From Bacteroidales bacterium (GTDB taxonomy: Bacteria > Bacteroidota > Bacteroidia > Bacteroidales > F082): a stretch of 64,000 nt of DNA. The first letter of the stretch is position 1; each line of letters begins with the position of its first letter. Positions 7,042 through 14,199 of the stretch are shown in pieces. A model generated the notes under the pieces. That model searched no databases and was not told where the DNA came from. It saw only the letters and a list, made by a program, of their open reading frames with translations. Position numbers and translations under genes: made by a program. The stretch is from positions 19,233 through 83,232 of the forward strand of contig WGCY01000047.1 in NCBI GenBank assembly GCA_015493525.1, written 5' to 3'.

Positions 7042-7075
7042 CGACCTTTCAGGTCGGATCCGACCTGAAAGGTCG
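7042..7075. repeat. Perfect 34-bp palindrome
   Basis: CGACCTTTCAGGTCGGATCCGACCTGAAAGGTCG equals its own reverse complement. Confidence 0.95.
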
Positions 7076-7124: not shown

Positions 7125-7208
7125 TACTACTTAAACTGAAAATAAATTACAGAAATTGTCCCTGTTTTCTATTTAAACTCTCCCTGTTTAGAATATATTT
7201 GCAACCGT

Positions 7209-7328
7209 AATTCTTCAGGGCAGGGTGCAATTCCCGACCGGCGGTTAAAGTCCGCGACTCTCGCCTGAGGCGAGACTGACTCCGTGAAATCCGGAGGCCG
7301 ACAGTACAGTCTGGATGGAAGAAGAATT
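7209..7328 (+). promoter_or_regulatory. FMN riboswitch (RFN element) aptamer
   Basis: aattcttcagggcagggtgcaattcccgaccggcggttaaagtccgcga...tccggaggccgacagtacagtctggatggaagaagaatt matches the conserved RFN core and closes with the aattcttc/gaagaatt P1 stem. Confidence 0.96.
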
Positions 7329-7414
7329 CGCTGCATAGGTCATATTTTGCCGGTACCGGTGTGTAAGCATCCGCCCGCACGAACAAAATGGCCGGTGTTA
7401 GTTATCTCCTTTTA

Positions 7415-7440
7415 TGCCCTGATGAATTGGGGCTTTTTTT
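7415..7440 (+). terminator. Probable expression-platform terminator of the FMN riboswitch
   Basis: GCCCT gatgaatt GGGGC followed by TTTTTTT, lying between the aptamer and the receptor start codon; the stem is short (5 bp including one G.U). Confidence 0.6.
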
Positions 7441-7468
7441 ATGGTTTTATTTTAATCTGCTCAAAGGC

Positions 7469-10042
7469 ATGAAAGGAAAATTTATTTTATTGATTACCGG
7501 CATTTTAATATCGGTTACGGTTGTTGCACAAAATGTGGTAAAAGGAAAAATCATGGATGCTTCCACCCGCCAGCCAATTGAAAATGTTCACATCATTTTA
7601 GACAATGGAAAAGACGGGGTTATCACCAATAAAAAAGGAGCGTTTGGTTTTCGCTTCACGCAAACCAAAGGGTACTTTACCATAGAAAGGGTCGGCTACC
7701 AGTCCGAAAAAATCTCCTTTAAAAGAAAAGGAAAAACCACAGTACTTCCCGTCATCTTGCTGGAACCAAAAACCTATTCCCTGAACGAAATCAACATCAC
7801 GGCAGGACTTGTAACCGACAAAGAGACTCCGGTCAGCGTCTCCACCATCAGCGCAAGGATCATCAAAAGCCGTTTGGGAGATCAGCCGCTACCGTTGATA
7901 CTCAATGCTGTACCCGGTGTTTACAGCGTCCGAAATGGCGGCGGGAGCGGCGATGCCTCGCTCAGCATCCGCGGGTTTAAACAGAACAACGTGGCCCTGT
8001 TGCTCAACGGTATTCCCATAAATGGTGTGGAAAACGGATTGGTTTATTGGAGCAACTGGCTGGGACTGGCCGATGCGGCTGCCAGCATACAGGTACAGAA
8101 AGGCCCAGGCTTCTCCAATCTCGCCACCAATGCCGTGGGAGGAAGCATCAACATCATAACCCGGACTAACAACCGGTCAAAAGGCGGAAGTTTCAGCTTT
8201 CAGATAACCGATTACGGCAACCAAAAAACAACGCTGAGCCTCAACAGCGGTAAAATGAAAAACGGCTGGAACCTCTCATTCATGGGCTCTTACTACAGTG
8301 GCAAAGGCTATGTGGATGCCACATACGTGAAAGGGTTCTCTTATTTTTTCAGTGCCAACAAGCAACTTAATACCAAAAATCATTTGAACATCACCCTGCT
8401 TGGCTCTCCGCAACATCACGGCCAGCGAACACAATTACTCTCTGCAAATGAGGAACAACTTTATGGAAACAAATACAACAAAGACTGGGGCAGCCTGGAC
8501 GGCAGGATGCTCAATGCTTCGGAGAATTTCTACCACAAACCCTTTCTGAGTATCAACCACGATTTGAAGATAAACGAGAAAAACAAACTCTCCAACAGTG
8601 TATTTGTAAGCTACGGCTATGGAGGCGGAAAGTGGTCGGAAAGTTTCCATTATGCCCCTTCCGTTTTTACTTATCTGAACAGTTCAGGACAAATCGACTG
8701 GCGGAAAATTTATGACCAAAATGCCAACAATACGCAGCACTATGTCCTGGCCAATGGCGATACCGTTACCGGTTATTCCCACAACGTACTGACCGACTTT
8801 CTGGCGAGCCACATACAAGCCGGGTTTATGAGCACCTTTGAACATCGGTTCAATACGCACCTGAAATGGACTACCGGCATTTATTATAACTACCTGAACT
8901 CTTTCCTTCGGGAAAAAATCACCGACCTGATGGGCGGTCAATTTTACATTGAAGATTATGCCTGGTCGCTCAGCGGCGTGGCCGGAAGAAACCAGCTTAT
9001 GCATGTGGGCGATATAATTAAGGTAAACAACAACACCCTTATCCATCATGCATCGGCTTATGCAAAACTCACCTTTTCGGGAAAACATTTGCGTGCCTAT
9101 TTCTCTGCAAACGGCAACAACCAGTGGTACAGGCGTATCGACCGGTTTAACTACATTACCAATACCAAAAGTCCGACGGTGATCCGGGCGGGATATGATT
9201 TCCGCGGAGGCATTAGCTACTTTCCCCGGCCACAACACAACTTTTACCTGAATGCGGCTTACCTCTCGCGTGCACCTTATTTTAAATACGTTTTTGGAAA
9301 TTTCAACAATACACCGGTGAGAAACCTGGAAAACGAAAGGATAAAAACCATCGAAGCCGGTTACCGGTTTACGCATCCTGCCTTTAAAGCCACTATCGGC
9401 CTGTTTTACACACAATGGGACAACGTTTCCATGCTCAGCAACGAATACATCCAGCTGTCGGACAACAGGCAGTCGCGGGCAATGGTCCACGGCCTGAACA
9501 GTATCCACAAAGGCATTGAAGCGCAACTGGAATACCGTCTGAACAACCGTTTCAAGCTGGGTGCCACAGCCACTTTTGGCGATTACCGCTGGCAGAATGA
9601 TGTTTCAGCCACGCTGATTAACGACAACAACGTGGTAACCGATACCGTCAACGTCTATGCCCGTAACTTATATGTGGGGGGGACAGCACAGCAGCAACTG
9701 GGTGCTTTTGCGGATTTCCGGCTTTTCAGCCTGCTGAATTTTCATTTGGAATGGAGGTGGTACAACAAACTGTTTGCAGACTTTGATCCCATTAACCGGA
9801 ATAACCCCGACAACCGCCAGCAGCCCTACTCATTTCCGGCTTATCAGGTAGTCAATGCTTACGTTTCCATCCCGTTTCATATAGCTTCTTTGCCCTCACT
9901 GGTGCAACTCAATGGATACAATCTTTTGAACAAAAAATATATTGAAACGGGAAAAGACGGGCAACACCACAATACAGAAGACTTCAGGGGATTCTGGTCG
10001 TTCGGAATTAACTTTAATTTAACATTTAAGGTCTATTTCTAA
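7469..10042 (+). CDS. TonB-dependent outer-membrane receptor (CarboxypepD-like N-terminal domain), FMN-riboswitch associated
   Basis: MKGKFILLITGILISVTVVAQ signal peptide, VVKGKIMDASTRQPIENVHI domain, plug motifs LSIRGFKQNNVALLLNGIPING and AVGGSINIITR. Start moved from 7388 to the signal-peptide Met at 7469. Confidence 0.92.
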   Translation: MKGKFILLITGILISVTVVAQNVVKGKIMDASTRQPIENVHIILDNGKDGVITNKKGAFGFRFTQTKGYFTIERVGYQSEKISFKRKGKTTVLPVILLEPKTYSLNEINITAGLVTDKETPVSVSTISARIIKSRLGDQPLPLILNAVPGVYSVRNGGGSGDASLSIRGFKQNNVALLLNGIPINGVENGLVYWSNWLGLADAAASIQVQKGPGFSNLATNAVGGSINIITRTNNRSKGGSFSFQITDYGNQKTTLSLNSGKMKNGWNLSFMGSYYSGKGYVDATYVKGFSYFFSANKQLNTKNHLNITLLGSPQHHGQRTQLLSANEEQLYGNKYNKDWGSLDGRMLNASENFYHKPFLSINHDLKINEKNKLSNSVFVSYGYGGGKWSESFHYAPSVFTYLNSSGQIDWRKIYDQNANNTQHYVLANGDTVTGYSHNVLTDFLASHIQAGFMSTFEHRFNTHLKWTTGIYYNYLNSFLREKITDLMGGQFYIEDYAWSLSGVAGRNQLMHVGDIIKVNNNTLIHHASAYAKLTFSGKHLRAYFSANGNNQWYRRIDRFNYITNTKSPTVIRAGYDFRGGISYFPRPQHNFYLNAAYLSRAPYFKYVFGNFNNTPVRNLENERIKTIEAGYRFTHPAFKATIGLFYTQWDNVSMLSNEYIQLSDNRQSRAMVHGLNSIHKGIEAQLEYRLNNRFKLGATATFGDYRWQNDVSATLINDNNVVTDTVNVYARNLYVGGTAQQQLGAFADFRLFSLLNFHLEWRWYNKLFADFDPINRNNPDNRQQPYSFPAYQVVNAYVSIPFHIASLPSLVQLNGYNLLNKKYIETGKDGQHHNTEDFRGFWSFGINFNLTFKVYF

Positions 10043-10271
10043 AGTATTAGGTTTCAGGCCTTAGCAACTTTTTATTAACTTTTTTTATGATTTTTTCAAC
10101 AGCTGATTAAACTATAACTTGTTGTTTCTCTTTATCTTACGCAAAGACATGAGGCCAATAAACTATTTCAGAATGCTTATTAATAAAAAATTCATAATAA
10201 CGAGCCGAATTATTCCATATTTTCGCCGCATAATTTAAAAGAACCTAATTTTAATTAAAAATTTTTGTTTT

Positions 10272-12878
10272 ATGAAACGTACAAATTTACTGTTAACCCT
10301 GCTGGTCAGCCTCCTGTTTGCAGGAGCCGCTTTTGCCCAGGGTGTTGTACAGGGTGTCGTTATGGATGCCACCAGCCATGAGACCCTTGTGGGGGCCACT
10401 GTGGTTGTGAAAGGAACTACGGCTGGTATTACCACCAACCTCGATGGTAGTTTTACTTTGATTGCCCCTTCCGGCAACCAAAAACTGGAGATTAGTTATG
10501 TTGGGTATGAACCCAAAGAAATTAATCTCACCATTAAAAATGGGGCTACTTACAATATTGGCAAAGTCAACCTGAAAAGTAGTGCCATTGGGCTGCAGGA
10601 AGTCAATGTATTGGCTTCTGTAGCTGTTGACAGGAAAACACCTGTTGCTGTTTCCACCATCGATTCCAAAGAAATAGCCCATCAGCTGGGAACAAAGGAT
10701 TTACCTTCGGTGATGGTTTACTCACCTAACGTTTATGTTACGCCTACCGGTGGCGGATATGGTGATTCCAGAATCAACGTTCGTGGTTTTGACCAAAGAA
10801 ACGTGGCTGTTCTGATTAACGGTATCCCCGTTAACGACATGGAAAATGGTTGGGTTTATTGGTCAAACTGGGCAGGTTTGGGCGATGCTACCCGTACCAT
10901 TCAGATTCAGCGTGGTTTGGGAGCTTCCAAACTGGCCATCAACTCTGTGGGTGGTACCATTAACATCATCACGAAAACATCGGACATGAACAAAGGTGGT
11001 TCCATTTATCTTTCCACCACCGATTATGGCCTTATGAAACAGATGCTGACCCTCTCCACCGGGAAACTGAAAACAGGGACTTCCATCACTTTTGTAGGTT
11101 CACATACCGCCGGAAACGGTTACATTGATGCTACCTGGACAAAAGCCTGGTCTTACTTCCTGTCGGTTTCTCAAGACCTCAACAAAAACAACCACTTGGT
11201 TTTCACCATTATTGGTGCCCCCCAACAACACGGTCAAAGAAACGGCTATTACATGCTGTCACAAAAAAAGTTTGACAAATACGGCCCCAAATACAATGAG
11301 AACTGGGGATGGCGCGGTGGCGAACAGCTGAACGAACGCGTTAACTTCTACCACAAACCGCAAATGGCCTTGAACTGGTACTGGAAAATTAACGAAAAAG
11401 CCCATCTGGCTACTTCGGCCTACTACTCCTTTGGTAAAGGTGGCGGATCAGGTCCTTTGGGTTACAACACCCATGGACATTACTATAAATACGAACCTCC
11501 GATGACGTCCAGCGGACAGTATGACTGGGACGCTATGGCTGACTGGAATGCCAGTAATGTTGACACAGCCAATGCCCGTGCATTGGGAGCTTATTCAATA
11601 TCTCACGGTGACACTATTTTTGAAGCCCGTTCACAGCACATTATCCGTAATTCGAACAACAACCACCAATGGTATGGTTTGCTCTCCACCCTGAAACTCA
11701 ATTTCAGTGATATGCTCACATTGACGACCGGTATTGACATGCGTCATTACAAAGGAGAACATTACCGTGAGGTGAGAGACCTGCTGGGTGGTGATTACTG
11801 GTCCGATCGTGCTTTCGGTGCCAGGAAAGTAGGCGACAAAATTGCTTACTGGAACGATGGAATCGTTTCTTATACCGGACTTTTTGCCCAGTTAGAATTC
11901 ACCAAAGGTATTTTCAACGCCTTTGTTGCCGGTACATTCTCCAACACATGGGATACCCGTGTTGACTATTACAACTACACCCCCGGTGTTGGCGAACGCA
12001 GCAAAACCCTCTCCAATGCAGGGTACGACTTTAAAGCCGGTGCCAACGTAAATGTTTCCGAAAGAAGTAACTTCTTCGTTAACGGTGGACTTTATTCCCG
12101 TGTACCGTTCTTCCGTTTTATGTTCCTGAACTATAAAAACATTGTGAACGAAAACCTTAAAAACGAAAAAATTTCCGCTATTGAGGCAGGATATGCTTAT
12201 AAAGCTCCCAAGTTTACCGCTCGCGTTAACGGTTATTACACCATTTGGTCAGATATTTCGCTGCTAAGAAGTTTTAAAGCCACGAATGGTAAATATGTAA
12301 ATGCTTTCATGTCAGACCTGAAAGAGATACATAGCGGTATTGAAATTGAGGCTAACTGGAAAGCTACCCGTTGGATGAACCTGGGTGGTATGCTGAACTT
12401 TGGTAACTGGAAATATGCCGATGATGCTACTGCCATTCTTTATGATGACCAGACACATCAGGAAATTGGAAAAGGGACCATTTATACCAAAGACCTTAAA
12501 GTAGGCGACCAACCGCAAACCTCTTATGGCCTGAACGGTTCTTTCCATATTACCAGACATCTTACACTGGGTGCCCATTACCTCTACTATGCTAACCTTT
12601 ATGCACACTTTACTCCCGAATCCCGTGTAAATCCTAACGACAGGGCTCAGGCTTATAAACTGCCCAATTACGGCAAACTGAACATGCGCCTCGGTTGGAG
12701 CTTCAAAATTGCCGGTATGGATTCTTACTTTAACTGGAATGTGTACAACGTAACAAACAATGTTACTTTGGTTGAAGCCGAAGACAAATTTGACTACGCT
12801 ACGAAAGAGCACGTATTCAAAAAAGGATTCTGGGGCTGGGGCCGTAACATGAACTTCTCCCTGAAAGTTAATTTCTAA
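10272..12878 (+). CDS. TonB-dependent outer-membrane receptor, paralogue of the preceding gene
   Basis: 868 aa; signal peptide, carboxypeptidase-like domain, INVRGFDQRNVAVLINGIPVNDMENGWVYWSNW aligning closely to the 7469-10042 product. Confidence 0.93.
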   Translation: MKRTNLLLTLLVSLLFAGAAFAQGVVQGVVMDATSHETLVGATVVVKGTTAGITTNLDGSFTLIAPSGNQKLEISYVGYEPKEINLTIKNGATYNIGKVNLKSSAIGLQEVNVLASVAVDRKTPVAVSTIDSKEIAHQLGTKDLPSVMVYSPNVYVTPTGGGYGDSRINVRGFDQRNVAVLINGIPVNDMENGWVYWSNWAGLGDATRTIQIQRGLGASKLAINSVGGTINIITKTSDMNKGGSIYLSTTDYGLMKQMLTLSTGKLKTGTSITFVGSHTAGNGYIDATWTKAWSYFLSVSQDLNKNNHLVFTIIGAPQQHGQRNGYYMLSQKKFDKYGPKYNENWGWRGGEQLNERVNFYHKPQMALNWYWKINEKAHLATSAYYSFGKGGGSGPLGYNTHGHYYKYEPPMTSSGQYDWDAMADWNASNVDTANARALGAYSISHGDTIFEARSQHIIRNSNNNHQWYGLLSTLKLNFSDMLTLTTGIDMRHYKGEHYREVRDLLGGDYWSDRAFGARKVGDKIAYWNDGIVSYTGLFAQLEFTKGIFNAFVAGTFSNTWDTRVDYYNYTPGVGERSKTLSNAGYDFKAGANVNVSERSNFFVNGGLYSRVPFFRFMFLNYKNIVNENLKNEKISAIEAGYAYKAPKFTARVNGYYTIWSDISLLRSFKATNGKYVNAFMSDLKEIHSGIEIEANWKATRWMNLGGMLNFGNWKYADDATAILYDDQTHQEIGKGTIYTKDLKVGDQPQTSYGLNGSFHITRHLTLGAHYLYYANLYAHFTPESRVNPNDRAQAYKLPNYGKLNMRLGWSFKIAGMDSYFNWNVYNVTNNVTLVEAEDKFDYATKEHVFKKGFWGWGRNMNFSLKVNF

Positions 12879-12898
12879 GAATTACATTTCATTCTTAC

Positions 12899-12931
12899 AA
12901 AAAAGCCCCTTCGTTTGAAGGGGCTTTTTTT
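12899..12931 (+). terminator. Rho-independent terminator after second receptor
   Basis: AAAAAAGCCCCTTC gttt GAAGGGGCTTTTTTT. Confidence 0.9.
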
Positions 12932-12960
12932 ATATCTTTATGGAAAATTTTAAATACTGA

Positions 12961-14199
12961 ATGGTTATGCAAAAGAACTTATCTTTTTATCTGTTAATAC
13001 CGTTTCTCGCCGGGCTTTTGCTCTTCTCTTCCTGCGATAAGACCGTGAAGAAGGGTGACGATACAGACTCGGGAAAACCTTACGTCGTCATGCTTTCGCT
13101 GGATGGCTTCCGGTGGGATTATCCCGACCATGCCTACACTCCTGTGTTGGATTCGCTAAAAAAAGCAGGTGTTTTTGCCGAGATGGTTCCCTGCTTTCCC
13201 ACCAAAACCTTTCCAAACCATTACAGCATTGCCACCGGGCTCTACCCCGACCATCACGGCATTGTACTCAACAGTTTTTACGCTACGGATTTGGGCAGGC
13301 ACTACAGTATTTCCGACCGCGCTTCTGTTGGAAACGGGATATTTTATGGCGGCGAGCCCATTTGGGTAACTGCCAAAAAACAGGGAGTTCATACAGCCAC
13401 TTTATTCTGGGTAGGCTCAGAGGCAGCCATCGAAGGCATCCGTCCGGATATTTGGTATCCCTATAACCATACTTTGCCGTTTACTTCACGTATTGACAGT
13501 CTGGTACGCTGGCTCTCATTTCCAGAAACCATTCGTCCGCATCTTATCTTGTGGTATTATCCTGAACCCGATGGCTCTGGCCATCATTACGGCCCTTCCG
13601 GGAAAACCATCCAGATGGTAGAACAGCTAGACCGCTGGCTGGGAAATTTCTTCACTGCCATGCGAAAACTTCCCATCTACAGTAAATTAAACTTTATCAT
13701 TACCTCTGACCACGGTATGGGGCCGATTTCCAATAACAGGGAAGTTATTTTAGATCATTACATCGATACAGCCAATCTGACCTACCGCGATGGGGGTAAC
13801 CCGGTTTATAATTTGGGGGTCAAGCCCGGAAAGCTGGAGACAGTTTATGAAAAGCTTAAAAAAGTACAGCACATCGAGGTATGGAAACACGACAGCCTTC
13901 CTGCCCGTTTACATTACGGTACCAATATTCGCACCCATGATTTAACAGTTGTGGCAGATTCCAACTGGAGCATTTACTGGTCGTGGCACATCGGATACGG
14001 TGGCGGAACCCATGGTTACGACAACCAATGGCGCGCCATGCATGCCATCTTTTATGCAGCAGGCCCGACCTTTAAAAAAGGCTACCGGCAAAAAAGCTTT
14101 CCAAACGTGGATATCTATCCGCTCATCACAAAAATCCTGCAACTCAAACCGGCAAAAACCGATGGCGACTTAAATGAAGTAAAAGACATGTTAAAGTAA
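12961..14199 (+). CDS. Ectonucleotide pyrophosphatase/phosphodiesterase (ENPP) family lipoprotein
   Basis: LLLFSSCDK lipobox; VVMLSLDGFRWDY, FPTKTFPNHYSIATGLYPDHHGIVLN, TSDHGMG and MHAIFYAAGPTFKKG match ENPP/alkaline-phosphatase-superfamily metal and catalytic motifs. Confidence 0.88.
   Translation: MVMQKNLSFYLLIPFLAGLLLFSSCDKTVKKGDDTDSGKPYVVMLSLDGFRWDYPDHAYTPVLDSLKKAGVFAEMVPCFPTKTFPNHYSIATGLYPDHHGIVLNSFYATDLGRHYSISDRASVGNGIFYGGEPIWVTAKKQGVHTATLFWVGSEAAIEGIRPDIWYPYNHTLPFTSRIDSLVRWLSFPETIRPHLILWYYPEPDGSGHHYGPSGKTIQMVEQLDRWLGNFFTAMRKLPIYSKLNFIITSDHGMGPISNNREVILDHYIDTANLTYRDGGNPVYNLGVKPGKLETVYEKLKKVQHIEVWKHDSLPARLHYGTNIRTHDLTVVADSNWSIYWSWHIGYGGGTHGYDNQWRAMHAIFYAAGPTFKKGYRQKSFPNVDIYPLITKILQLKPAKTDGDLNEVKDMLK

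Follow-up and report, generated by a model that had tools for sequence, protein, structure and literature searches.

A 64,000-nucleotide stretch of Bacteroidales contig WGCY01000047.1 (the window) carries a flavin mononucleotide (FMN) riboswitch, or RFN element, followed by genes for two TonB-dependent receptors (TBDR1 and TBDR2) and a lipoprotein of the ENPP family. Comparison with related genomes indicates that this locus is very probably a flavin-uptake unit of riboflavin-auxotrophic, uncultured Bacteroidales, in which FMN would repress TBDR1, with TBDR2 and ENPP as accessory components. The locus joins an RNA element and genes of identified families in a conserved architecture, with a switch whose strands covary, and lies in a genome that lacks the tested riboflavin synthesis genes and retains RibF. 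A flavin is strongly favoured as the substrate of TBDR1. The roles assigned to ENPP and TBDR2, and co-transcription downstream of TBDR1, are held with moderate confidence.

The RFN element and its targets

A covariance-model search placed FMN riboswitch RF00050 at positions 7207–7330 of the plus strand with 115.2 bits (gathering score 66.2; E 3.9e-26). The match spans all 138 model positions (1–138), so the first-pass annotation, which had read a full RFN aptamer at 7209–7328 from the sequence, was correct in this respect. It is the sole FMN riboswitch of the 2.85-Mb, 96%-complete window assembly (G000). A Bacteroidota-type -7 promoter element lies just 5′ of the aptamer, and this motif occurs within 60 nt 5′ of the aptamer at 86 of 100 RFN loci, compared with 0.55 per kb on the window plus strand. 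A perfect 34-nt palindrome (7042–7075) lies between the upstream gene for an FAD (flavin adenine dinucleotide)-dependent protein and the riboswitch promoter.

FMN riboswitches above cut-off are rare in a phylum-wide sample (23 of 297 genomes); the share rises to 65 of 294 genomes in the order and to 75 of 100 in the window's family. For 101 RFN loci, picked for spread and not randomly, the downstream target was read: a TonB-dependent receptor at 53, all or part of the rib operon at 32 and RibB alone at 12. Four loci could not be assigned; two of these reach a contig end, and another, L092, begins a receptor-like protein. Within the window's family, what RFN controls is TBDR1 in some genomes and the rib operon in others.

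Of the 53 TBDR1 genes in the 100 family genomes, 49 lie 107–171 nt 3′ of an RFN element, the remaining four being at contig edges. One fully supported clade of the receptor tree contains 48 of the 49 near-full-length receptors found directly behind RFN (the exception is L075), and its members come from many different families within the order. The survey of RFN elements upstream of TonB receptors that the first-pass annotation had proposed finds a cognate riboswitch directly upstream of one receptor type, conserved across lineages and shared by dozens of related species.

The expression platform couples the aptamer to a terminator

The leader of TBDR1 contains two mutually exclusive structures (Table 1). 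The terminator-like hairpin noted earlier at 7415–7440 is present as a hairpin at 7416–7433 followed by seven T residues, and its 5′ arm overlaps the 3′ strand of an antiterminator whose 5′ strand includes the 5′ strand of aptamer stem P1. The antiterminator duplex has an energy of -20.2 kcal/mol (z -4.5 against shuffles), and the ligand-free minimum free energy (MFE) structure of the leader is the antiterminator state, at -80.6. Forced folding placed the state with P1 and terminator 5.2 kcal/mol above this MFE, a gap that FMN binding could plausibly bridge.

In the window alone, a terminator scan performed at chance level (8 observed, 9.7 expected), as did a promoter scan, and these were replaced by comparison across loci. 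The terminator is supported because it is conserved in relatives, not by the window scan itself: a hairpin and U-run follow the aptamer in 40 of 53 RFN-TBDR leaders. Furthermore, an antiterminator-forming motif stands behind 84 of the 101 RFN elements, where shuffles predict 7.0. At the variable antiterminator position, aptamer and terminator arm covary across loci (A:U 47, G:C 26, G:U 10, A:C 0; p 1e-13), the non-pairing A:C combination occurring in no locus. The covariation is retained when TBDR leaders are taken alone (A:T 25, A:C 0, G:T 6, G:C 13; p 5e-7). As judged from this covariation, the coupling of aptamer to terminator is under selection in receptor leaders and rib leaders alike. 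Covariation of this kind, between the 5′ strand of the aptamer and the terminator in their antiterminator pairing, implies that FMN should turn the receptor off.

These data bear on the proposal that the RFN element is left over from a lost rib operon, standing before the receptor by accident and without regulatory function. Pathway loss in progress, as seen in genome G007 (see below), shows how such a relic might arise. However, the aptamer is intact and high-scoring, the leader distance stays within the narrow range given above, the receptor behind it belongs to one clade throughout, and the antiterminator covariation persists in TBDR leaders alone. A relic is therefore highly improbable.

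TBDR1 as a probable substitute for riboflavin synthesis

A search of the window genome found no RibB, RibE or RibH, and RibF is present; the window organism is therefore a predicted riboflavin auxotroph. The same complementarity is seen among 100 family genomes. RFN and TBDR1 occur together in 52 genomes without RibH (lumazine synthase) and in one with it, whereas RFN and RibH occur without TBDR1 in 18 (p 4.7e-12 within RFN genomes, Fisher test). Counted by receptor, lumazine synthase is missing from 53 of 54 TBDR1 genomes and is found in 18 of 23 riboswitch genomes that lack TBDR1. RibE was absent from all 48 RFN-TBDR genomes searched. The first-pass annotation had suggested that the first receptor imports flavins, and this is supported: the RFN-receptor arrangement sits in genomes without riboflavin synthesis, as flavin import predicts.

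Two genomes show decay in opposite directions. In G007 (locus L046), RFN is followed by recognisable but interrupted ribD, ribE, ribBA and ribH, which is riboflavin pathway loss in progress. In G607, which is RibH-positive and keeps its rib operon, a second RFN precedes a truncated TBDR1. Both losses would be expected if synthesis and uptake can substitute for one another. The argument rests more on repetition across families and on these two cases than on the p values.

TBDR1 is a TonB-dependent receptor

The first-pass annotation described a first receptor with a clear signal peptide, and TBDR1 fits this description, with matches to Plug (PF07715), barrel (PF00593) and CarbopepD_reg_2 (PF13715) domains in addition to the signal peptide read from the sequence. 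Its start is ATG 7469, not the mechanical open reading frame start at 7388. An AlphaFold model (pLDDT, the predicted local distance difference test score, 84.9) returned TonB-dependent transporters as structural matches throughout. The closest fold in the PDB was that of the pyrroloquinoline quinone (PQQ) receptor PqqU (9c4o, E 2.6e-36), with siderophore receptors close behind; this match to a predicted model supports the class of TBDR1 and not its ligand. Assignment of TBDR1 to the SusC/RagA family was rejected, as TIGR04056 gave no match. Matches to NCBIfam subfamilies (haemoglobin, B12 and siderophore receptors) all fell far under their cut-offs and were not used.

Could TBDR1 instead import a nutrient other than a flavin, for instance an iron complex or a different cofactor, for which demand tracks flavin status? 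Most of the solved TonB-dependent receptors in the fold search are siderophore receptors, and in other bacteria the metabolism of iron is tied to that of riboflavin (PMC6041382). Nevertheless, FMN is what the riboswitch senses; TBDR1 takes the place of the rib operon under its control, occurs where riboflavin synthesis has been lost, and would serve auxotrophs that depend on flavin uptake. Import of another nutrient is accordingly considered unlikely, and a flavin remains the favoured substrate.

TBDR2, ENPP and PhoD

Downstream of TBDR1 lie TBDR2 and ENPP (Table 1). TBDR2 had been described as closely related to TBDR1; the second receptor is real, but the closeness was overstated, as TBDR2 is a distant paralogue (35% identity) in a separate clade of the receptor tree. 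It was likewise rejected as a SusC/RagA protein (TIGR04056, 77.7 bits against a curated cut-off of 368.25). Across relatives, the second receptor, between RFN and ENPP, is one of three exchangeable types.

ENPP was earlier read as a lipoprotein with ENPP motifs, and its intact gene matches PF01663 with 300.4 bits (cut-off 23) and encodes the lipobox FSSC. No common export signal that would point to surface exposure of ENPP is visible in the N-termini. The active-site region was aligned to ENPP3 and snake venom phosphodiesterase; residues D48, T83, D204, H208, D250, H251 and H351, which we take to be the nucleophilic threonine and six metal ligands, are invariant in 22 orthologues. FAD hydrolysis by ENPP is plausible.

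Table 1. Features of the candidate flavin-receptor locus in the window.
Feature	Position	Strand	Description	Evidence
-7 promoter element	7194..7201	+	Bacteroidota type, TATATTTG (TANNTTTG)	Motif just 5′ of aptamer, common at RFN loci
FMN riboswitch aptamer	7207..7330	+	RFN element, RF00050, full length	Covariance model, 115.2 bits
Antiterminator, 5′ strand	7208..7222	+	Aptamer P1 5′ strand and UCAGGGCA; pairs with 7415-7429	Duplex energy, MFE, covariation
Antiterminator, 3′ strand	7415..7429	+	UGCCCUGA-U-GAAUUG; overlaps terminator 5′ arm	Folding, energies, covariation
Intrinsic terminator	7416..7440	+	Expression platform; hairpin GCCCTGATGAATTGGGGC (7416-7433) and T7	Hairpin scan, conservation in relatives
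TBDR1	7469..10042	+	TonB-dependent receptor, 857 aa; signal peptide, CarbopepD_reg_2, Plug and barrel; candidate flavin importer	Pfam, orthologues behind RFN, AlphaFold model
TBDR2	10272..12878	+	Second TonB-dependent receptor, 868 aa	Pfam; 35% identical to TBDR1
Terminator hairpin	12899..12930	+	Conserved, between TBDR2 and ENPP	Present in 23/25 receptor2-ENPP gaps
ENPP	12961..14199	+	Predicted lipoprotein, type I phosphodiesterase/nucleotide pyrophosphatase, complete active site	PF01663, motif alignment, orthologues

The first-pass annotation left co-regulation in doubt since TBDR2 has no RFN element of its own and a terminator (placed at 12899–12931, and found at 12899–12930) precedes ENPP. 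Both observations hold, but the doubt is eased by the intergenic regions. No terminator lies between TBDR1 and TBDR2 in the window, and one was found in a single case among the 35 such gaps compared; a promoter motif occurs in 16 of these 35, so TBDR2 possibly has its own promoter in some species. The gaps between the second receptor and ENPP are short and on the same strand, and contain a strong terminator in nearly all cases and a promoter motif in only 3 of 25. This pattern argues, with moderate confidence, for one transcription unit from TBDR1 to ENPP, in which attenuated read-through would reach the enzyme.

An ENPP orthologue is present in 65 of 100 family genomes, as a single copy in nearly all carriers. 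The co-occurrence check that the first-pass annotation had suggested found its order and strand to be fixed: in all 36 genomes with RFN and ENPP on one contig, ENPP shares the strand of RFN and lies no more than 9 kb downstream of it. A PhoD phosphatase is often the next gene in relatives (13 of 41 well-covered RFN-TBDR loci). Receptor, ENPP and PhoD also stand behind the RFN-rib operon at loci L060 and L064 of two prototrophs (G016 and G045). This arrangement points to a salvage route that leads from FAD through FMN to riboflavin, although the ENPP and PhoD families act on many substrates and both steps are deduced from gene content. Synteny gives the ENPP link good support, and function gives it moderate support.

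The neighbouring genes can be explained in another way, with TBDR1 as a flavin importer and TBDR2-ENPP(-PhoD) as a separate unit for scavenging nucleotides or phosphate, adjacent to it by chance. Many phosphate esters are substrates of ENPP and PhoD, a conserved terminator stands before ENPP, about half of the gaps between the two receptors hold a promoter motif, the second receptor swaps among three types, and some genomes carry TBDR2-ENPP without RFN. Chance adjacency fits less well with the finding that ENPP, on RFN-bearing contigs, occurs nowhere but downstream of the element, with the terminator-free gap between TBDR1 and TBDR2, and with the receptor-ENPP-PhoD genes that follow the rib operon where RFN drives that instead. 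A separate unit is a tenable possibility, held tentatively. The integrated account has roughly an even chance of being correct: an FMN-riboswitch flavin salvage system in auxotrophic Bacteroidales, comprising a flavin receptor, a second receptor, an ENPP FAD pyrophosphatase and, in relatives, a PhoD FMN phosphatase, with a riboswitch that moved between synthesis and uptake upon pathway loss.

Proposed mechanism

At low cytoplasmic FMN, the nascent leader would form the antiterminator (7208–7222 with 7415–7429) and TBDR1 would be transcribed. At high FMN, the aptamer would close the P1 stem, allowing the terminator at 7416–7440 to form and transcription to stop. TBDR1, energised by TonB, would carry a flavin (riboflavin, FMN or FAD) through the outer membrane. 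TBDR2 and ENPP are probably accessory, with ENPP splitting FAD into FMN and adenosine monophosphate (AMP), and the PhoD phosphatase of relatives could remove the phosphate from FMN. Riboflavin would enter the cytoplasm by some permease, and RibF would make FMN and FAD.

Several observations weigh against this account. The sequence and fold of TonB-dependent receptors are uninformative about substrate. The family genomes are not independent of one another, so that Fisher p values overstate the evidence and are indicative only. Genome G052, the one exception to the absence of RibH beside RFN-TBDR1, carries an isolated RibH-like gene on another contig, a contig on which no RibD, RibE or RibBA was found. 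Thirteen near-complete genomes of genus g14 (e.g. G028, G072, G076 and G083) lack RibH, RFN and TBDR1, and auxotrophs of the family can therefore live without TBDR1. Among the 41 RFN-TBDR loci that are followed by 9 kb of sequence, 16 lack ENPP, and TBDR2-ENPP also occurs without RFN in some draft genomes. Finally, no inner-membrane flavin permease was found, the ECF-type (energy-coupling factor) RibU (PF12822) being absent from the window genome; PF12822 gave one match over cut-off in 48 genomes.

Separately, the g14 genomes also lack an ENPP orthologue, and their sister species keep an RFN-rib operon. At locus L078 (G518), RFN, a divergent TBDR1 and a Nuc_H_symport permease (PF03825) of the major facilitator superfamily lie in a row; judged by this position, the permease is a candidate for the inner-membrane step. 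Elsewhere in the window, an S-adenosylmethionine (SAM) riboswitch (RF00162, 38667–38550, minus strand, 71.3 bits) precedes genes (38505–34639, minus strand) read as aspartokinase, a Cys/Met-metabolism sulfhydrylase and homoserine acetyltransferase, and this locus looks like an ordinary methionine operon.

The flavin-uptake account points to a particular receptor family together with its regulator and the organisms that carry it. Under this account, riboflavin cross-feeding would be expected in communities of sediment, groundwater and digesters, with these uncultured Bacteroidales relying on flavins released by others, possibly in the form of FAD. The exchange of riboswitch target from synthesis genes to receptor, with intermediates visible, would be a clean case of uptake replacing a lost pathway.

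Comparison with known systems

To our knowledge, the known bacterial riboflavin transporters are inner-membrane proteins, and little is known of flavin uptake across the Gram-negative outer membrane. FMN-riboswitch regulons include the riboflavin transporters RibU, RibXY, PnuX, ImpX, RibN, RfnT and RibZ (PMC3766115, PMC6593275). The present loci resemble these regulons in placing riboflavin synthesis and candidate uptake genes under RFN, but those transporters, including the ones given by Rodionov et al. in 2019 (PMC6593275), are not outer-membrane receptors. Sun et al. reported in 2013 that they found no FMN riboswitch in Bacteroidaceae (PMC3766115), and Gutierrez-Preciado et al. in 2015 did not mention an outer-membrane or TonB system (PMC4418817). 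A literature search, which left out most subscription journals, found no published flavin TonB-dependent receptor.

The proposed conversion of FAD to FMN and AMP outside the cytoplasm has a parallel in Ftp of Treponema pallidum, a periplasmic FAD pyrophosphatase (PMC4767422), although Ftp belongs to the ApbE/Ftp family and not to ENPP. Xanthomonas NPP (PDB 2gsn) and vertebrate ENPP1 and ENPP3 are of the same family as the window enzyme, and their active-site motif aligns with it; those enzymes act on general nucleotides, whereas a role in FAD cleavage is proposed for the window enzyme.

PqqU (YncD), the TonB-dependent PQQ receptor of Escherichia coli, is the best fold match to TBDR1 and also imports a redox cofactor, but the two share 14% identity, and several siderophore receptors have similar TM-scores, which makes the ranking a poor guide to the ligand. 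BtuB and the cobalamin receptors controlled by B12 riboswitches are riboswitch-controlled receptors for a large vitamin. TBDR1 differs from them in its proposed ligand and its riboswitch and is weakly similar in sequence (TIGR01779, 38 bits against a cut-off of 599.7). B12 transporters of Bacteroides thetaiotaomicron are mentioned together with the closest parallel, OMthi (PMC5613172).

OMthi (BT2390) of B. thetaiotaomicron is a TonB-dependent thiamine transporter under a thiamine pyrophosphate (TPP) riboswitch, and when it was deleted along with the biosynthetic operon, the cells required more of the vitamin (PMC5613172). It is an experimental precedent from the same phylum for a cofactor riboswitch placed before a receptor for the matching vitamin. 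The two systems differ in that the ligand of OMthi is thiamine or TPP and its host makes thiamine and has a riboswitch-controlled pnuT, whereas the window locus has FMN as riboswitch ligand and the tested riboflavin synthesis genes are absent. Riboswitch-controlled vitamin receptors are thus known for B12 and thiamine; a flavin case would be new, and its genomic setting makes TBDR1 a strong candidate for a TonB-dependent flavin importer not described before.

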